Part shown: in pieces, positions 4,233-16,872 of the stretch | Layout: each line of letters starts with the position of its first letter | Numbering within the stretch: the first letter of the stretch is position 1 | NCBI GenBank assembly: GCA_028293825.1 | Contig: JAQGNY010000054.1 | Span: 124,001-188,000 of the forward strand | DNA from: Verrucomicrobiaceae bacterium | GTDB lineage: Bacteria > Pseudomonadota > Gammaproteobacteria > Pseudomonadales > CAMLJR01 | Direction: 5' to 3' | DNA length: 64,000 bases | Position numbers and translations under genes: made by a program | The notes under the pieces: generated by a model | The model's input: only the letters and a program-made list of their open reading frames with translations | What the model was told of the DNA's origin: nothing | The model's database searches: none

Positions 4233-6761
4233 ATGGCGCGCTCCACCGAAACTATTACCACGACCAATGCCACTATAAGGAAGCTGCGTTTTTATTGCGT
4301 CCTATTCGGTACGATTGCAACCGCGCTTTGGATTGGTTGGACCGTAACGCGGCTATGGGAAAATAAGCAGCTTCAATTTCAGGAGCGCGCAGCGGTTCTG
4401 CTGAATGGCGTCGCGTCGCAGCTCACCGCCAGCATGGCGATGACGCGTAGTTTTCAGGCGTTTTTTGATTCGTCGGATTATGTCGAAGGCGAAGAATTCG
4501 CAACCTTTGCAAACGCCGAACTAAAAAACTTCCCCTATATAAGCAGTGCCTTTTATGCGCCACGCGTTGAATTAGTTGCACGTCCGAGCTTCGAGCAAAT
4601 TCTTGCGCGGCAAACCGCCGTCACATCAATTACCGAACTCGATGCCAAAGGCATCTCTATCGCAAGTCCAGCGCGCGAATTTTATTTCCCAATTATTTAC
4701 CTGAAAGCGGTACGCCCCACCAATCCGGTTCATGCCGGCCTGGATTTATACCCCGCCTGGCGCGCAATCATGGAAGAGGCGTTCGATAGCAATGAAGTGC
4801 GTGCAGTGCCGGCATCATTCATCGCCAACGGCAGCGAGCAATGCGCTTTAATCGTCCCCATTTATGACCACAGCAGCCGCCGTGTTGTCGTTGGCATCGT
4901 CGCCACATTACTCGACAAATACGAGCTGATCGATCGTATGGTGTTCGGCACTAATCTCGGATTGCAGATTGTTTTCAGCGAGCGTTCGATTTTGCATTTT
5001 GGCGCCCCGCTCGCCGATATCGATAAAACAGCGCGCGGCTGGTTCGGTGCGCGTATCGCGCAACTGAGCCGGCCGGTCATGAGCGGCAATCAATCGATTC
5101 GGATGCTGGTGAAGCAGCCATTGCAGTGGCAACTAGATGATGTCATTACATTATTAATACCGCTGCTGGGCGGCCTCGCCATTAGTGCCGCTATTTATTG
5201 GGCTTTGCGCGGCACCTTGCTCGCCAATATCGCAGCGGCTGGAAGTAAAGCAAAAAGCGAATTTCTCGCGGTGATGAGTCACGAAATTCGCACACCGTTA
5301 AACGGCGTGCTCGGCATGACAGAGATGTTAGAAAAGACGCCACTGACGAATGAGCAGCGCAGCTATATCAAAACCATCCGCTCGGCCGGCAACTCGCTAC
5401 TGGAGGTCATCAATGACATTCTGGATATTTCAAAAATCGAAGCGCGGCGCATGCGGCTCGAAGATATCGAATTCGATTTGGGCCAACTGCTTGCCGACAT
5501 CGCGGATATTTATCGAATCTCGTTTTTCAATCGCGGCATTTTGTTCGATGTATCCATGGCGCCGAGCGTGCCGGAAATCGTGCGCGGCGATCCTTCGCGG
5601 CTGCGCCAAATCCTGAATAATTTATTATCCAACGCGCTGAAATTTACCGCGCGTGGCGCAGTGTCATTGCGTGTCGATAATCTGGAGCGCGTAAATGATC
5701 GCAGCCGGCTGCGCTTCGAGGTAGCCGATACCGGCATCGGTATCGCCCAGGATCATCAGCATAATGTGTTCGACGTATTTACCGATGTCACCGACTGGAC
5801 GCGACGACGCTACGGCGGCACTGGGCTCGGATTGAGCATCTGCAAACAATTGATCGACATGATGGGCGGCGACATTGGCGTCGACAGCGTGCCCGACAAG
5901 GGCAGTCATTTTTGGTTTGAATTAAAACTTCCGAGCCGAATTAATATGGCTCTCGCGCCACGCGCATCAAACTGGCGGGCACTGGTCGTCGCCACTGCCG
6001 ATAGCGCATTGACGATTGATGTCGAGCAAATTCGCGCTCTGAAAATTGAGCCGGTTACCGCGCGCAATACGCACAAGGCGATGGCTTGGCTGGAATCGCA
6101 CGCGGCGGTGCCACCGGAGCTGATCGTGTTGGATCTGCCCGAAAACGACAGCGCCAGCGCGGCCTTTTGCGCGCAGTTGCTCGCGGATCTTCGCTTTCAG
6201 CGAATTCCCCTGATCATTTATACGTTGAGCTCTTCCAGCGCCGCATTGCAGCAAGCTCACTACGCCGGCGCCAAACCCTGCAATGCGGCGCAGTTGTTAC
6301 GAATTATTGAGCGCGAGCCGCAAACCGCTGCGCAACCAAACGGCACGGTGGTCGATATGGCGCAGCCGTTAAATATCCTCGCTGCTGAGGACAATCTGGT
6401 GAATATCGCGGTATTGAAATCGATGCTCAAACAGCTGGGACACCGCGCCACCTTTTGCGAAAACGGCGAAGTGGCTCTGACCGCTTTTTGCAAGGCAACG
6501 CGCCGCTTTGATTTGATTTTGATGGACTGTGAAATGCCGGTGCTGGATGGCTTTAATACGACGCGCGCGATTCGGGCCTTCGAGCATCGTCAGGGATTGT
6601 TGCCGACGCCGATTATTGCGCTCACAGCGCATGCCTTTCCCGAGCAGCAGGAGCATTGTCTCGAAGCGGGCATGGACCGTTATCTGAGTAAGCCTGTCAG
6701 TTTGACGACGCTAACGATGACGTTGCGGCAATATCAGCGCCCCGCGGTGCAGAGCGCTTAA
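4233..6761 (+). CDS. CHASE-domain hybrid sensor histidine kinase
   Basis: An 842-residue inner-membrane hybrid kinase. Order seen: TM segment (about 20-40), extracytoplasmic CHASE-like sensor (about 60-270), second TM (about 305-325), HisKA with phosphoacceptor His350 in SHEIRTPLNG, HATPase with N, G1 (DTGIGI) and G2 (GGTGLGLSI) boxes, an internal degenerate receiver, and a C-terminal receiver with Asp765 in LMDCEMPVLDG and the switch Lys in LSKPVS. The internal receiver-like part (about 570-700) lacks the N-terminal acidic pair, so it is probably not phosphorylated. No cognate response regulator or Hpt gene is adjacent; output presumably passes to a partner elsewhere. The ligand is unknown. 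Confidence 0.9.
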   Translation: MARSTETITTTNATIRKLRFYCVLFGTIATALWIGWTVTRLWENKQLQFQERAAVLLNGVASQLTASMAMTRSFQAFFDSSDYVEGEEFATFANAELKNFPYISSAFYAPRVELVARPSFEQILARQTAVTSITELDAKGISIASPAREFYFPIIYLKAVRPTNPVHAGLDLYPAWRAIMEEAFDSNEVRAVPASFIANGSEQCALIVPIYDHSSRRVVVGIVATLLDKYELIDRMVFGTNLGLQIVFSERSILHFGAPLADIDKTARGWFGARIAQLSRPVMSGNQSIRMLVKQPLQWQLDDVITLLIPLLGGLAISAAIYWALRGTLLANIAAAGSKAKSEFLAVMSHEIRTPLNGVLGMTEMLEKTPLTNEQRSYIKTIRSAGNSLLEVINDILDISKIEARRMRLEDIEFDLGQLLADIADIYRISFFNRGILFDVSMAPSVPEIVRGDPSRLRQILNNLLSNALKFTARGAVSLRVDNLERVNDRSRLRFEVADTGIGIAQDHQHNVFDVFTDVTDWTRRRYGGTGLGLSICKQLIDMMGGDIGVDSVPDKGSHFWFELKLPSRINMALAPRASNWRALVVATADSALTIDVEQIRALKIEPVTARNTHKAMAWLESHAAVPPELIVLDLPENDSASAAFCAQLLADLRFQRIPLIIYTLSSSSAALQQAHYAGAKPCNAAQLLRIIEREPQTAAQPNGTVVDMAQPLNILAAEDNLVNIAVLKSMLKQLGHRATFCENGEVALTAFCKATRRFDLILMDCEMPVLDGFNTTRAIRAFEHRQGLLPTPIIALTAHAFPEQQEHCLEAGMDRYLSKPVSLTTLTMTLRQYQRPAVQSA

Positions 6762-6827: not shown

Positions 6828-7160
6828 CTAGTTGGATGCTGTAGCCGGCACTACAGCTGCCTTGACGAGCGGCTGCAGTTCGCCGTTTTCATGCATCTCG
6901 CACACGATGTCGCAACCGCCGACCAGCTCACCATTCACCCACAACTGCGGAAAGGTTGGCCAGTTGCCAAATTTCGGCAGATTCGCGCGGATATCGGGAT
7001 TCGACAAAATATCCACATACGCAAAGCGTTCGCCGCACGCCATCAGCGCCTGCACGGTACGTGCGGAGAAGCCGCACTGCGGGGCATTGGGCGAGCCTTT
7101 CATATAGAGGATGATCGGGTTCGAACTGACTTGCTCTTTGATTACTTCGAAAACGTCCAT
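6828..7160 (-). CDS. grxD: Monothiol glutaredoxin, Grx4/GrxD type
   Basis: A 110-residue CGFS-type glutaredoxin that binds a glutathione-ligated [2Fe-2S] cluster as a dimer and acts in iron-sulfur cluster trafficking. The active site PQCGFS, the GSH-binding WPTFPQLW stretch (TFPQ with the cis-Pro) and GGCDI are all present. The start at 7160 (MDVFEVIKEQV) is chosen because it matches the family N-terminus; an upstream in-frame extension to 7283 does not. An AGGT element lies just before the ATG. It is divergent from argD. Confidence 0.95.
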   Translation of the reverse strand: MDVFEVIKEQVSSNPIILYMKGSPNAPQCGFSARTVQALMACGERFAYVDILSNPDIRANLPKFGNWPTFPQLWVNGELVGGCDIVCEMHENGELQPLVKAAVVPATASN

Positions 7161-7334
7161 ACACATACCTATTTTGCTGAGGACCGAGCGGTCTGCGGAT
7201 AACTTGGCTTTAATTGCACACAGGCTGAATTGTACACAGAAAGAAAAGCAAATCCGAGCGCGACACTCAACTTTAGTCGGCATCGCCCGCGATTGCTGCG
7301 CCGGCGATTAATCTATAGTATTACTCGTTTCGTT

Positions 7335-8635: not shown

Positions 8636-9541
8636 ATGGCTGTAAGACACTTTTTGACTTTGCTGGACCTCACGCCAGCCGAACTGCACCACGTGTTGCA
8701 ACGCGCTGCCGAATTCAAACAAGAACATCGCCAGCGCCTCTATACCGACCGTTTCAAAAATTATGTGCTAGGCATGATTTTCGAGAAGTCGTCTACGCGC
8801 ACACGCGTCTCTTTCGAGGCCGGCATGGCGCAGATGGGCGGTCACGCCATGTTTCTTGCACCCAAAGACACGCAGCTCGGCCGCGGTGAACCGATCGAAG
8901 ACAGCGCACGTGTGATGTCATCGATGATCGACATCATCATGGTGCGCACCTTCGGACACAGCCGCATCGAGCGCTTTGCCGCATTCTCGTCGGTGCCGGT
9001 AATCAACGCGCTGACTGACGACTTCCATCCCTGCCAAGTGCTGGCCGACATGCAGACCTTTATCGAGCATCGCGGCAGCATTCAAGGCAAACAGGTGGCA
9101 TGGATTGGCGATGGCAATAACATGTGCCAGACCTACATCCAAGCGGCGCGACAATTCGATTTCGAGCTGCGCATCGCCTGCCCGCAAGGGTTTGAACCGC
9201 GCGAAGACCTAGTCAACGCTAATCGCGACCGCGTCAGCATCGTGCGCGATCCGAAAGAAGCCGCACGCGGCGCCCATCTCCTCGCCACCGATGTATGGGC
9301 CTCGATGGGGCACGAGCACGAAATCAGCGAGCGTCGGCGCGCGTTCGGCGGCTATCAACTCAACCGCGAATTGCTCAGCATTGCCGCCAGCGATGCGCTC
9401 TTTATGCATTGCTTGCCGGCACACCGCGAAGAAGAAATTAGCGCCGAGCTGATGGAAGACCCGCACAGCGTCATTTGGGATGAAGCCGAAAACCGTCTGC
9501 ACTCGCAAAAAGCGCTGATCGAGTTTTTACTCACCCATTGA
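8636..9541 (+). CDS. argF: Ornithine carbamoyltransferase
   Basis: A 301-residue enzyme forming citrulline from ornithine and carbamoyl phosphate in the cytoplasm. Diagnostic motifs are intact: carbamoyl-phosphate site [21 protein letters not shown], and the ornithine-site HCLPAHR. The start is set by the family N-terminus [13 protein letters not shown] strong GGGGAGGG lies about 30 nt upstream but is too far away to be its Shine-Dalgarno, so translation initiation may depend on coupling or a leaderless-like context. It follows argD. Confidence 0.96.
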
Positions 9542-9661
9542 GTGTCGCGCCGTAAAAATAATGGCGGTGCGTACAGATAATTTTTCCGCCAATTACGTTA
9601 CTCAATTGCCCACTCCCGGCCTGCGCCGGGCTCTGGGGTTAGTGCCCACCGACCCTCAGAA

Positions 9662-9681
9662 TTACCCACAACTTATCCACA
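9662..9681 (+). promoter_or_regulatory. Two DnaA-box-like sites upstream of nrdA
   Basis: A perfect DnaA box TTATCCACA at 9673-9681, directly preceded by TTACCCACA at 9662-9670 (one mismatch), in the same orientation with an 11-bp start-to-start spacing, i.e. one helical turn. DnaA control of nrdAB is established in Escherichia coli, so regulation linking dNTP supply to replication initiation is a reasonable inference here. Confidence 0.75.
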
Positions 9682-9723
9682 GCTCGCACCCAATTTATCC
9701 TGCTTGCACTCACCCTCGAACCG

Positions 9724-9770
9724 CATTATCTTGTAGTCCGATTTTCCTAAACCCCTATATGTTGGGGTTT
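9724..9770 (+). promoter_or_regulatory. Pair of NrdR-box-like sites upstream of nrdA
   Basis: The downstream site (about 9752-9767) is an inverted repeat with the core CTATATGTTG (9755-9764), flanked by CCC and GGG, and fits the NrdR consensus core CwAtATaTwG. A weaker copy, CATTATCTTG, lies at 9724-9733. The cores are exactly 31 bp apart, three helical turns, as is usual for tandem NrdR boxes. They would repress nrdAB when nucleotide-loaded NrdR binds. Confidence 0.75.
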
Positions 9771-9813
9771 ACCGGGCAATAACTAAACAAACAGCGAGTT
9801 CCAGGGAGAGCCC

Positions 9814-12708
9814 ATGCAGCCAGACGTCACGCCTTCTATTACTACATCTCAGACCACCACCCAGCCCTCCCCCAGCGTCACTTCGTCGGCCGCGTTACAA
9901 GCGACCGCGCCCGGGCAAATTCGGGTGATTAAGCGCAATGGCACCGTAGTCATTTATGACGACAGCAAAATCGCCGTCGCCATCACCAAAGCGTTTCTGG
10001 CTGTCGAGGGCGGCACCGCCGCTGCCTCCACCCGTATTCATGAAACCGTGGCCAAACTCACGGTGATGGTTAGCACCACGTTCAAACGTCGCATGCCTTC
10101 CGGCGGCACGATTCACATCGAAGACATTCAAGATCAGGTCGAATTGTCATTGATGCGCAGCGGCGAACAGAAAGTCGCGCGCTCGTACGTGATCTATCGC
10201 GAAGAACATGCGCGCCAACGCGCTGCCAAGGCTGCGACGCAACCAGCCAAAGCGCACCCGACGCTGCATGTCACGCTGCAAAACGGCCAACGCGAATTCC
10301 TCGATCTGGGCCGGCTCGAAACTATCGTTGCCGAAGCCTGTTCCGGCCTGGAAGGTGTCGACGCCCAATTGGTGCTCGGCGAAGCGCTGAAAAGCCTGTA
10401 TGACGGCGTGCCGATCGGCGAGCTAAACACTTCGCTGGTGATTACCGCACGCGTTTTGGTTGAGCAGGAGCCGAACTACTCGTTCGTCACCGCGCGCCTG
10501 TTAATGGACAAGTTGCGCGAAGAGGCACTGACCTTCCTCGACGTCGCGCCGTCGGCCACCCAAGCCGAAATGACCGAGTTCTATCCACTCGCGCTTAACG
10601 CTTATATCGCCAAAGGTATCGAGCTGGAATTGCTCGATCGCCGTCTGCAAGATTTCGACCTGGCCCGCCTCGGCGCGGCGTTGAAGCCTGAACGCGATCA
10701 CCTGTTCGGCTACCTCGGCCTGCAAACGCTGTACGACCGCTACTTTATTCACAGCAACGAAATTCGCTTCGAGCTGCCGCAGGTGTTTTTCATGCGTGTG
10801 GCGATGGGTCTATCGATCAACGAAGACGACAAGAACGCGCGTGCGATCGAGTTCTACAGCCTGCTGTCCAGCTTCGATTACATGAGCTCGACGCCGACGC
10901 TATTCAACTCCGGCACGCTGCGCCCGCAATTGTCGTCCTGCTATCTGACCACCGTGCCCGACGATCTCGACGGCATTTTCGCTGCGATCCACGATAACGC
11001 CATGCTGTCGAAATGGGCCGGCGGCCTCGGCAATGACTGGACGCCGGTGCGCGCGCTCGGCTCCTATATCAAAGGCACCAACGGTAAATCGCAGGGCGTC
11101 GTGCCGTTCCTGAAAGTAGTCAACGACACCGCCGTCGCCGTTAACCAAGGCGGCAAACGCAAAGGCGCGGTCTGCGCGTACCTCGAAACCTGGCACCTCG
11201 ATATCGAGGAATTCCTTGAGCTGCGCAAAAACACCGGCGACGACCGCCGCCGCACGCACGATATGAACACCGCCAACTGGGTGCCCGACCTGTTCATGAA
11301 ACGCGTGTTTCTGGACGGCGACTGGATGCTGTTTTCACCGGCCGATACGCCCGATCTGCACGACCTGTTCGGCACCGCCTTCGAAGAGCGCTACAACCAT
11401 TACGAACAGCTCGCCGCCGCCGGCAAAATGCGCCTGTACAAGAAAGTTCGCGCGCAGGATCTGTGGCGCAAAATGCTGTCGATGCTGTTCGAAACCGGCC
11501 ATCCGTGGATCACGTTCAAAGACCCATGCAACCTGCGCAGCCCGCAGCAGCACATCGGCGTCGTGCATTCGTCGAATCTCTGTACCGAGATCACGCTAAA
11601 CACGAACAAAGACGAAATCGCCGTCTGCAACCTCGGCTCGGTCAACTTGAACCAGCACATTGTCGATGGCGCGCTGAGCCACACGAAGCTGGAAAAAACT
11701 ATCCGCACCGCCGTGCGCATGCTCGATAACGTTATCGACATCAATTACTACTCGGTGCCGCAGGCGAAGAATTCGAACCTGCAACACCGTCCGGTCGGGC
11801 TCGGCATCATGGGCTTCCAGGATGCGTTGTACACATTGCGCACCCCGTACGCATCGGACGCCGCCGTCGAATTCGCCGATCGCTCGATGGAAGCGGTCAG
11901 CTATTTCGCCATCAAAGCCAGCGCCGAGCTGGCGCGCGAGCGCGGCAGCTACCAAACCTTCAGCGGTTCGCTGTGGAGCCAGGGCATTCTGCCGATCGAT
12001 TCGGTCGATATTCTGGTCAATCAGCGCGGCGCCGAGTTCATCGACGTCGATCGTTCGCAAACGCTGGACTGGAACACGATGCGCGAATTTGCCCAAGCCG
12101 GCATGCGCAACAGCAACGTGATGGCGATTGCACCAACCGCGACGATTGCGAACATCACCGATGCGTCGCAGTCGATCGAGCCGACTTATCAAAACCTGTA
12201 CGTGAAATCGAATTTGTCCGGCGAATTTACCGTGGTGAATCCGTACCTCGTGCACGATTTGAAAAAGCGCGGCCTGTGGGACGCGGTGATGGTCAACGAC
12301 CTGAAATATTTCGACGGTAGCGTGCAGCAGATCGATCGCATTCCGGCGGACTTGAAAGCGCTGTATGCGACCGCATTTGAAGTAGAGCCGCGCTGGTTGG
12401 TCGATGCCGCCAGTCGCCGCCAGAAGTGGATCGATCAGGCGCAGTCGTTAAACCTTTATATCGCCGGTGCCTCGGGCAAAAAGCTCGATGTCACTTATCG
12501 CATGGCTTGGTATCGCGGCCTGAAAACCACGTATTACCTGCGCGCGTTGTCGGCGACCAGCACCGAAAAATCGACCGTCACCACCGGCAACTTGAATGCC
12601 GTATCGAACGCGTCGGCAAGCACCGCGGCGAGTGCGGCATTTACGCAAGCGGCGGAAGTGCCGAATGCGTGCTCGATCGATAATCCGGACTGCGAGGCTT
12701 GTCAGTAA
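9814..12708 (+). CDS. nrdA: Class Ia ribonucleoside-diphosphate reductase, alpha subunit
   Basis: A 964-residue catalytic subunit that reduces ribonucleoside diphosphates to dNDPs. Order: Ser/Thr-rich start, first ATP-cone (about 30-135), second ATP-cone (about 145-240), then the ten-stranded barrel domain. Catalytic parts seen include the SSCYLT cysteine, NLCTEI, and the NSNVMAIAPTATIANI phosphate-binding stretch. The C-terminal tail ends CEACQ, the redox cysteine pair. Two ATP-cones are known from Pseudomonas NrdA and mediate allosteric activity control. The start at 9814 has AGGGAG upstream. nrdB follows after 91 bp. Upstream sites for DnaA and NrdR suggest cell-cycle and nucleotide-sensing control. 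Confidence 0.97.
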   Translation: MQPDVTPSITTSQTTTQPSPSVTSSAALQATAPGQIRVIKRNGTVVIYDDSKIAVAITKAFLAVEGGTAAASTRIHETVAKLTVMVSTTFKRRMPSGGTIHIEDIQDQVELSLMRSGEQKVARSYVIYREEHARQRAAKAATQPAKAHPTLHVTLQNGQREFLDLGRLETIVAEACSGLEGVDAQLVLGEALKSLYDGVPIGELNTSLVITARVLVEQEPNYSFVTARLLMDKLREEALTFLDVAPSATQAEMTEFYPLALNAYIAKGIELELLDRRLQDFDLARLGAALKPERDHLFGYLGLQTLYDRYFIHSNEIRFELPQVFFMRVAMGLSINEDDKNARAIEFYSLLSSFDYMSSTPTLFNSGTLRPQLSSCYLTTVPDDLDGIFAAIHDNAMLSKWAGGLGNDWTPVRALGSYIKGTNGKSQGVVPFLKVVNDTAVAVNQGGKRKGAVCAYLETWHLDIEEFLELRKNTGDDRRRTHDMNTANWVPDLFMKRVFLDGDWMLFSPADTPDLHDLFGTAFEERYNHYEQLAAAGKMRLYKKVRAQDLWRKMLSMLFETGHPWITFKDPCNLRSPQQHIGVVHSSNLCTEITLNTNKDEIAVCNLGSVNLNQHIVDGALSHTKLEKTIRTAVRMLDNVIDINYYSVPQAKNSNLQHRPVGLGIMGFQDALYTLRTPYASDAAVEFADRSMEAVSYFAIKASAELARERGSYQTFSGSLWSQGILPIDSVDILVNQRGAEFIDVDRSQTLDWNTMREFAQAGMRNSNVMAIAPTATIANITDASQSIEPTYQNLYVKSNLSGEFTVVNPYLVHDLKKRGLWDAVMVNDLKYFDGSVQQIDRIPADLKALYATAFEVEPRWLVDAASRRQKWIDQAQSLNLYIAGASGKKLDVTYRMAWYRGLKTTYYLRALSATSTEKSTVTTGNLNAVSNASASTAASAAFTQAAEVPNACSIDNPDCEACQ

Positions 12709-12744: not shown

Positions 12745-12799
12745 AACAACAAATTTTACGCATGCACGTAAATAAAAAATCGAAAGTGGGGTGAGAACA

Positions 12800-14098
12800 A
12801 TGCTGAATTGGGAAGAGTACAACGCGGAAGAACCGATTCCCGCCGCCGTAAAAACCAACGCGTACGCTGAAACGCAAGCAGCCGCGCCGCAACAGATCGC
12901 CGAACCGGCGCCGGTTTACGCCGACAATGCCGCGCGTGAAAAAGCCGCCGAAGAAAAACTGGTTGCGCAAACCGTGCCGGCGGAGCCGATCGTTGCCGAT
13001 GCAGATATCGCCGCGCGTGCGCACGCTGCTGTCGAAAGCCTCGACATCGCCGCCGGTCTTGAAGATTTGGAAATGGGCGCAGCGCGCCTGCAGGTCGATG
13101 ACAAACGCATGATCAATTGCCGCGTCGACCTCAATCAATTAGTGCCGTTCAAATACGATTGGGCATGGCAGAAATACCTCGATGGCTGCGCCAACCATTG
13201 GATGCCACAAGAGGTAAACATGACTGCCGACGTCGCCACCTGGCGCTCTCAGGACGGCCTCACCGAAGACGAACGCCGCATCGTGATGCGCTCGCTCGGT
13301 TATTTTTCGACGGCAGATAGTCTCGTTGCAAATAATTTAGTACTCGCCATTTACCGCCACATCACCAATCCCGAGTGCCGGCAATATTTATTGCGTCAGG
13401 CATTCGAAGAAGCGATTCACACGCACGCGTATCAATACTGCGTCGAATCGCTCGGCATGGATGAGGGCGAAGTTTTCAACATGTATCGCGAAGTGCCGTC
13501 GGTCGCGAAAAAGGCGGCGTGGAGTTTGCGTCACACACATTCGCTGAACGATCCGAATTTCAAAACCGGCACCTTCGAAAACGATCAGGAATTGCTGCGC
13601 AATTTAATTGGCTTCTACGGCGTCACCGAAGGCATTTTCTTCTACTGCGGTTTCACGCAGATTTTGTCGATGGGTCGTCGCAACAAAATGACCGGCGTCG
13701 CCGAGCAATTCCAATATATTTTGCGCGACGAATCGATGCATTTGAATTTCGGCATCGATGTCATCAACCAAATCAAATTAGAAAATCCGCATTTGTGGTC
13801 GGAAGCGTTTCAACGCGAAGCGGTGCAGATGATTATCGAAGGCACCGAACTCGAAGTGCAGTACGCACGCGACTCAATGCCGCGCGGCGTGCTCGGTATG
13901 AATGCGGCGATGATGGAAGATTATTTGCACTTCATCGCCAACCGTCGTCTCACCCAGTTGGGCTTGCCGGAACAATTCCCCGGCGCGCAAAACCCCTTCC
14001 CATGGATGAGTGAAATTATGGATTTGCGCAAAGAGAAAAACTTCTTCGAAACACGTGTAACGGAATACCAAACCGGCGGCGCGTTAAGCTGGGAATGA
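12800..14098 (+). CDS. nrdB: Class Ia ribonucleoside-diphosphate reductase, beta subunit
   Basis: A 432-residue radical subunit carrying the diiron-tyrosyl cofactor that initiates catalysis in NrdA. The ferritin-like core is clear: iron ligands in [11 protein letters not shown] and [10 protein letters not shown], and the family C-terminus [15 protein letters not shown]. An Ala/Glu-rich stretch of about 75 residues precedes the core and is longer than in the E. coli protein. The ATG at 12800 (MLNWEEYN) is preferred over the GTG nine bases earlier because GGTGAG is correctly spaced before it. It lies downstream of nrdA in the same operon. Confidence 0.96.
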
Positions 14099-14836: not shown

Positions 14837-16603
14837 TTAAGTTTCGTTGTTGTCGATATCTTTCTCGCCAAGCCACTGTGTAATCGTCTGCGCCAGCACC
14901 TGCAATGAAACCGGTTTGCTCAGATAGGCATTCATGCCGGCCGCAATAGCGCGCTGTTCATCGCTCGCCATTGCGTGTGCCGTTAATGCAATAATCGGAA
15001 CGGTCTTATTAATTCCGCCGTCACTGCGCAAATGCTGCGCGGTTTCATAGCCATCCAGCACCGGCATTTGGCAATCTAAAAAAATTAAATCGTAGCTATT
15101 GTGGGCCAAGGCTGTCAGCGCGTGCTGGCCGTCGTCAACGATGTCGGGGCTAATTCCCAGCGATTGCAACTGATGACGAATGACCTGCTGATTGACGCGA
15201 TTGTCTTCCGCCACCAGCACGCGAATACCGGAAAACCGCACTGGCAACGCCTTATGTTCGGGCAGTGCTTGCGGCTCGGCCTGCGGTAATGTGACCACCA
15301 GCGTGAAACGCGTGCCTGTATTTATTTTGCTGACGAATTGCAATGTGCCATGCATCTGCTCGGCCAGTCGTTTACTGATACTCAGGCCTAAACAGGTGCC
15401 GGAAAAGCGTCGTGTGGTCGAGGTATCGCCCTGCACAAACGGTTGAAATATTTTGTCGCGCAGCGCATCGGCAATACCGACGCCGCTGTCGCTAACAGTA
15501 ATCGTCAGTTGCGCAATGCGATGGGCATTTTCAAGACTGACATCGACACCAACACTGCCGTGCTCGGTAAATTTAATGGCGTTGGACAATAAATTGTCGA
15601 CGATTTGTCCGATCCGCAATGCATCGCCGAGCAGCCAGTTATGCGCGGGCATCGCCTCGTTCAACACCAACGCCAAACCTTTCACTTCCGCACTTAAGCG
15701 ATGGCGCTCGACCACATCGTGTAATAACGTGCGCACTGAAAAGGGTTGCGTCAACAACATCAATTTACCGACTTCGATTTTCGAAAAATCGAGCAGATCG
15801 TCGATCAATTGCGTCAGCGTGTAGGCCGACGATGTAATTAATTTTAATAATTGTTGCTGCTCATTGCCCATCGCCGTGTGTCGCAATAATTCCGCGGGTG
15901 CGGCAATGCCATTCAACGGCGTGCGAATCTCGTGACTGATATTGGCAAGGAATTGATCCTTGGCACGATTGGCCGCCTCCGCACGCTCGCGCGCTTCGGT
16001 CAAATGATGGCGCATCGCCACCGCACTCCAATAATCGCGATGCAATGAAGTCGCAATGCGCACCACGTACAACATAAATGCGATCAGCAACAACGCGAGT
16101 AACATCCATAAATCTTCGCGATGCGCGAGCGTACTGATTAACGGCAGCCCGAGATGAATAACCAGCATCGTCAACGCCAGCGCGCGATGCGGCGCATAGG
16201 ACACAACACAGCCGAATGCGAGCGCGACCGAGCCCAACAAAACCAACATCACGGCGGTATCGAGCGGACCGACCCACAGCATCACGCTGGCCTGCAGCGC
16301 CCACAGTAAATTGGCGAACACCATCGGCACCGCAATCAATGTCAGCCAATCGCGGCGATTGATATCGGCGCGGGCCTGCACGATGCGCACGCCAAACCAG
16401 CGAAAAATTGCCGTCAATACCGATAAGATAAAAATGGCGCGGCAAAAAATCGGAAAACGCTGACTGAAGCCCGGCGCCAACACTATCGCCAATGTCGCCA
16501 GCGGATGCGTTTGAATACCGACGCGCGCATGTTGTGCGGAAAATCGAAATGCTTCGTGAATATCGTGCGTGGAGATACCGCTATTCGCCTGTTGTTCTGG
16601 CAC
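14837..16603 (-). CDS. Membrane hybrid sensor histidine kinase
   Basis: About 588 residues. The N-terminal half has five to seven hydrophobic segments (about 40-200) forming an integral membrane sensor of unrecognised type. Then follow HisKA with the phosphoacceptor in NISHEIRTPLNGI, HATPase with DSGVGIAD and a slightly altered G2 box (SGTCLGLSISK, where GTGLG is usual), and a C-terminal receiver with Asp in LIFLDCQMPVLDG and the switch Lys in LSKPVS. The GTG at 16603 is chosen because GGGAG lies 6 nt upstream; a TTG at 16636 has no such site. It is a lone gene; the signal and output are unknown. Confidence 0.88.
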   Translation of the reverse strand: MPEQQANSGISTHDIHEAFRFSAQHARVGIQTHPLATLAIVLAPGFSQRFPIFCRAIFILSVLTAIFRWFGVRIVQARADINRRDWLTLIAVPMVFANLLWALQASVMLWVGPLDTAVMLVLLGSVALAFGCVVSYAPHRALALTMLVIHLGLPLISTLAHREDLWMLLALLLIAFMLYVVRIATSLHRDYWSAVAMRHHLTEARERAEAANRAKDQFLANISHEIRTPLNGIAAPAELLRHTAMGNEQQQLLKLITSSAYTLTQLIDDLLDFSKIEVGKLMLLTQPFSVRTLLHDVVERHRLSAEVKGLALVLNEAMPAHNWLLGDALRIGQIVDNLLSNAIKFTEHGSVGVDVSLENAHRIAQLTITVSDSGVGIADALRDKIFQPFVQGDTSTTRRFSGTCLGLSISKRLAEQMHGTLQFVSKINTGTRFTLVVTLPQAEPQALPEHKALPVRFSGIRVLVAEDNRVNQQVIRHQLQSLGISPDIVDDGQHALTALAHNSYDLIFLDCQMPVLDGYETAQHLRSDGGINKTVPIIALTAHAMASDEQRAIAAGMNAYLSKPVSLQVLAQTITQWLGEKDIDNNET

Positions 16604-16872
16604 CAAAAACTCCCTGTCTCTCGCAAGAGAAATCAATTCGACGGATTAAACTCGACAGCGTGCGCATTAAACATTTGCTGTAACGGGCTGCCGGTAGAAC
16701 GTAATTTCCAGTGAATCGATTTGAATCCATTTCCCGAAAACGTGTGCGCGTCATAATAACGCATTGATCGTCAGTTTCGCGCCGAACACTTACGCAGAAT
16801 ATTTCTCAGGAAAACGGCGCGACGAAAAAAAATCATTTCCGCCACGCTATTTTTATCAAGTAAAAATTTAGT

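Follow-up and report, generated by a model that had tools for sequence, protein, structure and literature searches.

A double DnaA box in helical register with the promoter probably controls nrdAB in a gammaproteobacterial genome

The two DnaA boxes at positions 9662-9681 of the window, i.e., the whole 64-kb stretch of DNA analysed here, can with good confidence be read as the double DnaA box of the nrdAB promoter, from which DnaA would act on RNA polymerase in combination with repression by NrdR. For the individual parts of this reading, we are highly confident that DnaA would bind the pair, a regulation of nrdAB by DnaA appears very likely, and a net activation from the helix side facing RNA polymerase is slightly favoured. 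In a preliminary description, the sites had been presented as one perfect and one one-mismatch box in the same orientation, one helical turn apart and 133 bp before nrdA. The sequence bears this out, with a pitch of 11 bp and a 2-bp gap on the same strand, and 133 bp from position 9681 to the ATG at 9814. The pair consequently has the make-up of a double box as defined by two same-strand 9-mers near TTATCCACA that are 2-3 bp apart, carrying zero and one mismatches. Between the boxes and nrdA, we additionally found a likely promoter and NrdR boxes, which were absent from that description. The features of the region are as follows, where rung numbers give the distance in bp from the first base of a box to TATCTTG, and box centres assume that the first T of TATCTT is at -12:

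8636-9541, + strand: argF, upstream neighbour (the boxes sit between argF and nrdA)
9662-9670, + strand: DnaA box 1, TTACCCACA, one mismatch; rung 65, predicted centre about -73
9673-9681, + strand: DnaA box 2, TTATCCACA, perfect; rung 54, predicted centre about -62
9695-9703, + strand: putative degenerate third DnaA box, TTATCCTGC, three mismatches; rung 32, abutting the -35
9704-9709, + strand: predicted -35, TTGCAC, from the sequence; 17-bp spacer to the -10
9721-9736, + strand: NrdR-box-like palindrome CCGCATTATCTTGTAG over the -10
9727-9732, + strand: predicted -10, TATCTT, inside the conserved TATCTTG anchor, from sequence and conservation
9752-9767, + strand: NrdR box CCCCTATATGTTGGGG, starting 31 bp after the start of the upstream palindrome
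9814-12708, + strand: nrdA, 964 aa, class I ribonucleotide reductase alpha (NF005544, Pfam PF02867, two ATP-cone stretches)
12791-14098, + strand: nrdB, 435 aa, ribonucleotide reductase beta

In the wider neighbourhood, a gene for a Grx4-type monothiol glutaredoxin (6828-7283, - strand) lies a few genes upstream of nrdAB. Two genes encoding hybrid histidine kinases with receiver domains (4233-6761 and 14837-16636, on opposite strands), one of them with a CHASE sensor domain, flank the glutaredoxin, aminotransferase, argF and nrdAB genes.

A simple scan for the sigma-70 consensus called no promoter at the locus, and the promoter was instead assigned by conservation: TTGC precedes TATCTTG by exactly 23 bp in 54 of the 72 anchored sequences of the held-out set described below, which supports the assignment. 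A search of positions 9400-10000 against Rfam gave no match. The two NrdR palindromes are separated by 15 bp, within the 15-16 bp required of a pair of NrdR boxes, and an nrdR gene is present in the genome (G000:C21:90566-91006). Among the relatives, the NrdR pair likewise consists of a palindrome over the -10 and one 31-32 bp downstream; the anchoring rule as such gives preference to the upstream palindrome. The palindrome over the -10 corresponds to what has been named “box 0” in E. coli (PMC12176259) and “box 1” in P. aeruginosa (PMC4409342), and in 2025 E. coli NrdR was said to use a box 1 and a box 2 downstream of the -10 (PMC12176259). A counterpart of this E. coli box 2 is not convincing in the window, with scores of 3.5 at +31, 9.5 at +32 and 13.0 at +30 (13.5 for E. 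coli's own box 2), and box-2-like sites are only slightly above background across the relatives (8 of 216 anchored sequences at a score of at least 14 and 24 of 216 at a score of at least 12, against backgrounds of 0.8% and 5.1%). The E. coli result on box 1 and box 2 may not be valid for the group of the window.

Single boxes are not unusual, as the window holds 11 one-mismatch matches at an expected number of 8.46. The pair is. The 4.34-Mb assembly (G000, 56 contigs) contains 29 perfect copies of TTATCCACA, and when all were checked, only the one before nrdA had a partner with at most two mismatches at 11 or 12 bp; the runner-up, located upstream of dnaA, has a three-mismatch partner. When positions were drawn at random from the fetched DNA, a pool which includes the perfect boxes of the genome, a partner with at most one mismatch turned up in about 0.2% of draws. 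A reading of the boxes as just two of the window's one-mismatch matches was rejected on account of this rarity of the pair together with the held-out ladder test. The upstream region of dnaA (L255 2027-2179, G000:C27) itself features three perfect boxes, two forward and one reverse, and is perhaps near the origin.

The DnaA protein of the genome is 67% identical to that of E. coli, the stretch RDHTTVLHACRKI is identical in both, and Hda and NrdR are encoded as well; DnaA therefore very likely binds the pair and acts on the promoter. The preliminary description had named conservation of the sites in relatives as the check to be made, and this check turned out strongly positive with respect to both presence and promoter-relative position. 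A perfect box on the coding strand was found in 56 of 80 upstream regions of named related nrdA genes and not in the other 24 (stretches of at most 700 bp before the match start plus 90 bp after it, a few of them with much less upstream DNA). In an evenly drawn class-wide sample, 50 of 127 upstream regions had a perfect box on the same strand (77 had none), compared to four on the opposite strand and zero for the reversed word, and 200 permuted words scored 0.46 on average and 7 at most. Among unseen order-level genomes, the corresponding counts were 64 of 84 (20 without), three and zero.

How the box positions are filled differs between lineages. A perfect box is missing from the one same-genus genome, G001 (L090), which has one- and two-mismatch boxes only, i.e., TTCTCCAGA with two mismatches on rung 65, TTACCCACA on rung 54 and TTGTCCCCA on rung 43. 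Rung 65 is also occupied by TTACCCACA in Pseudomaricurvus (L051), Halomonas-type promoters carry TTATCCACT on rung 31, and DnaA boxes are present before Pseudomonas nrdA genes, among them a P. putida locus (L017) whose layout equals that of the window. In all four named Acinetobacter loci (L068, L070, L079, L086), no box with at most two mismatches was found on the ladder; these promoters keep TATCTTG and the NrdR box, and have a perfect box at least 128 bp before the anchor. At five loci from SAR86, Litoricola and related organisms (L056, L060, L073, L082, L087), a second perfect TTATCCACA is located upstream of nrdA at about 75-111 bp from the first. The NrdA encoded on one contig labelled as a Klebsiella pneumoniae MAG (L044) shares 70% identity with the window's type, and this contig is probably mislabelled or mis-binned.

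The position of the boxes relative to the -10 was assessed by anchoring the sequences at TATCTTG (at most one mismatch) followed by an NrdR-like palindrome at 24-27 bp, a rule that makes no use of DnaA boxes. In total, 145 of 234 sequences could be anchored, including 61 of the 127 in the class sample, so that the ladder counts are silent on the remainder. Within 80 bp of the anchor, perfect boxes start at distances of 41-44, 52-54, 64-65 and 74 bp and one-mismatch boxes also at 31 bp, while six perfect boxes are located further off, at 92-129 bp. Rungs were set at 31, 42, 53, 64, 75 and 86, each with a tolerance of 1 bp, which together cover 27% of positions 25 to 90. Among the named loci, relatives and window (83 anchored), all 54 perfect boxes and 66 of 69 two-mismatch boxes fell on a rung, as did 20 of 23 and 19 of 22, respectively, in the class sample (61 anchored). 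The best periods were 11.1 and 10.75 bp. Hits with at most two mismatches on the opposite strand or to the reversed word were rare and showed no enrichment on rungs. The control with permuted words is imperfect, since some words with at least 10 hits reached an on-rung fraction of 1.0, perhaps by overlapping the real box. Binomial p-values count relatives as independent and thereby overstate significance; subsets of low identity over 90 bp serve as a guard, and in these 26 of 31 boxes (sequences less than 45% identical) and 52 of 62 boxes (less than 50%) were on a rung.

As the rungs were first set after viewing the data, a prediction was written in advance and then tested on unseen genomes. 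For this held-out set, 86 upstream regions were fetched, and 84 were kept after two duplicates of earlier sequences had been dropped; it omits eight full-length matches of family f20 (two others are in) as well as partial, low-identity and E. coli-type matches. Anchoring succeeded for 72 of the 84, the other 12 being without a confident anchor or enough upstream DNA. Of 139 boxes with at most two mismatches, 132 fell on the pre-set rungs, compared to an expectation of 27% (perfect, 58/60; one mismatch, 23/23; two mismatches, 51/56), while none of the three boxes on the opposite strand did so. In 17 mutually dissimilar sequences (less than 50% identical), the count was 20 of 21. A double box is present in 62 of the 72 anchored sequences, with pair spacings peaking at 11 bp (74 pairs) and a second group at 22-23 bp (33 pairs), and 45 of the 60 perfect boxes are nearest to rung 53/54. 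Boxes with three mismatches are likewise enriched on the rungs in aggregate in the unseen genomes (56/81); the third box of the window, TTATCCTGC, is weak evidence when taken as a single site.

We tentatively regard it as quite possible that such a ladder of DnaA sites is common to many gammaproteobacterial nrdAB promoters, with 11-bp slots (centres near -39, -50, -61, -72 and -83) locked to the -10 and filled in a lineage-specific manner. DnaA would then be a factor that contacts RNA polymerase from one face of the helix, shifts of the strong pair by one turn in either direction could tune activation and repression, and the module would have been kept while the NrdA behind it differs between distant families. 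The same register could also be a matter of descent only, i.e., of an ancestral array of tandem boxes with an 11-bp pitch that was inherited and decayed differently in each lineage, so that the phase to the promoter is historical. One ancestral array would put all boxes on one ladder, with pairs mostly at 11 bp and others at 22-23 bp, and the window and its same-genus relative L090 indeed share rungs 65 and 54 with differing box strengths. However, in the low-identity and mutually dissimilar subsets the DNA separating the boxes from the -10 is divergent and the register is nevertheless kept within about 1 bp; neutral insertions and deletions should have blurred it. We consider descent alone a serious rival, albeit an unlikely one.

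In the reading that we prefer, DnaA would bind both 9-mers cooperatively, with one molecule per box on a common face of the helix, and from about -62 and -73 relative to the predicted start, near position 9739, would act on RNA polymerase at TTGCAC/TATCTT. Upstream distances near -61 and -72 are typical of activators touching RNA polymerase. The location of all rungs on approximately one face at such distances points to activation by contact, although this is what we infer from the geometry. Most likely, DnaA-ADP or low levels of DnaA-ATP on the strong pair would raise nrdAB transcription, whereas DnaA-ATP at high levels may extend to weaker boxes closer to the -35 and reduce this transcription, as was reported for E. 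coli. With dATP bound, NrdR would repress from its two palindromes, one over the -10 and one past it, so that replication status, sensed via DnaA, and the dNTP level, sensed via NrdR, could meet at one promoter.

Alternatively, the role of the boxes could be purely repressive, with DnaA-ATP at the pair recruiting further DnaA towards the -35 and excluding RNA polymerase. High DnaA-ATP was described to repress E. coli nrdAB (PMC8203912, PMC13220808), a degenerate box abuts the -35 in the window, and the box of Halomonas-type promoters is on rung 31. Nevertheless, the strong pair is located upstream of the -35 in the window and in most order relatives, as reflected by the perfect boxes nearest rung 53/54 in the held-out set, and an exclusively repressive function appears rather improbable. 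In the window, the predicted -35 begins 22 bp past the end of the strong pair, only the three-mismatch site abuts it, and the pair is therefore not of the E. coli kind with a strong box near or touching the -35. This difference from E. coli suggests that repression may be weaker or that the E. coli-type repression arm may not apply.

Perfect DnaA boxes can bind DnaA anywhere, and elements of the datA/DARS type combine a box cluster with IHF or Fis sites and stimulate ATP hydrolysis or nucleotide exchange. The pair could accordingly mainly titrate DnaA or recycle its nucleotide while nrdAB is left unregulated, a view to which the second perfect box further upstream at five loci would also lend itself. 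Titration requires neither a position locked to the nrdA promoter nor an orientation that is nearly always that of nrdA (64 same, 3 opposite), both of which are observed, and such a function is very unlikely. That the boxes are chance matches is extremely improbable, since the near-expected number of single one-mismatch boxes in the window is outweighed by the genome-wide rarity of the pair, by its conservation among relatives and by the ladder test on unseen genomes.

A regulation of nrdAB by the double box can be compared with several known systems. DnaA control of nrdAB in E. coli, which the preliminary description had taken as known, agrees with the literature (PMC8203912): DnaA-ADP or low DnaA-ATP on strong boxes was reported to activate and high DnaA-ATP to repress (PMC8203912, PMC13220808). 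DnaA control of reductase genes was also proposed in Bacillus subtilis and Caulobacter crescentus (PMC8203912). Upstream of nrdA in E. coli MG1655, TTATCCACA stands at rung 43 and TTATGCACT at rung 31. Both loci consequently share two boxes in gene direction on one strand, one helical turn apart, at helical-turn distances from the -10 and on a common ladder, followed by a promoter of TTGC and TATCTT and by two NrdR-like palindromes, one over the -10 and the other 31-32 bp further downstream. Rung 32 with the putative TTATCCTGC is the equivalent of the E. coli rung holding TTATGCACT. In contrast, the window's pair on rungs 65/54 is located about two turns further upstream than the E. coli pair on 43/31 and clear of the -35, its gap is 2 bp instead of 3 bp, its perfect box is the promoter-proximal one, and NrdR box 2 of E. 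coli has no clear counterpart.

The preliminary description had further suggested that DnaA controls nrdAB in another lineage. Conservation of the boxes in presence and position supports this, with DnaA binding and the sign of regulation being inferred. The notion of another lineage holds strongly, as the window's NrdA is only 29% identical to E. coli NrdA, belongs to a different NCBIfam family (best equivalogs NF005544 and NF006578, respectively) and has two ATP-cone stretches instead of one. Among 24 upstream regions of E. coli-type nrdA, comprising that of E. coli itself, 13 of order relatives and 10 of the class sample, four feature a perfect box on a ladder rung (43 in E. coli, 54 in L303 and L305, 31 in L297) and 20 do not; L271-L273 have perfect boxes at 109-165 bp, outside the tested range. 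The module hence occurs before both NrdA types and was, in the samples taken, commoner before that of the window.

The P. aeruginosa nrdA promoter (PMC4409342) was described to have an NrdR box over the -10 and a further one, as in the window, whose NrdA shares 74-76% identity in the best segment with named Pseudomonas NrdA proteins; the available text of that paper does not use the word DnaA, and DnaA boxes are not discussed in it. According to ChIP-seq in E. coli, DnaA prefers double boxes whose 9-mers are 2 or 3 bp apart, the one of nrdA being TTATCCACAaagTTATGCACT (PMC11317965); a double box in this sense should be bound by DnaA and should lose this binding with either 9-mer. Other double boxes of that study, e.g., at purH, polA, nrdD, datA, DARS2 and oriC, resemble the window's pair in their 2-3 bp gap and in usually combining one perfect with one weaker 9-mer, but belong to genes other than nrdAB, and a promoter-phased ladder is not mentioned in the available text (PMC11317965).

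Most of what is known about the control of ribonucleotide reductase by DnaA comes from E. coli, and in 2024 the way in which DnaA activates was still termed poorly understood (PMC11317965). Among the open papers listed in searches, titles and abstract openings revealed neither DnaA boxes before nrdA in other Gammaproteobacteria nor a promoter-phased ladder. A promoter-phased array represents a natural promoter series that varies in the rung of the strong pair, in which the sign and size of the DnaA effect can be read against distance. The sequence comparisons suggest that the window's organism couples the provision of DNA precursors to the onset of replication via a conserved pair, and that such a link between dNTP supply and replication initiation could be widespread in Gammaproteobacteria, before two distant NrdA families. 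With DnaA control of nrdAB already known from E. coli, the locus is a variant of a known arrangement; what appears to be new is the breadth of this arrangement, its presence before another NrdA family and its helical lock to the promoter, of which the class-wide lock may be the part that is new to specialists.
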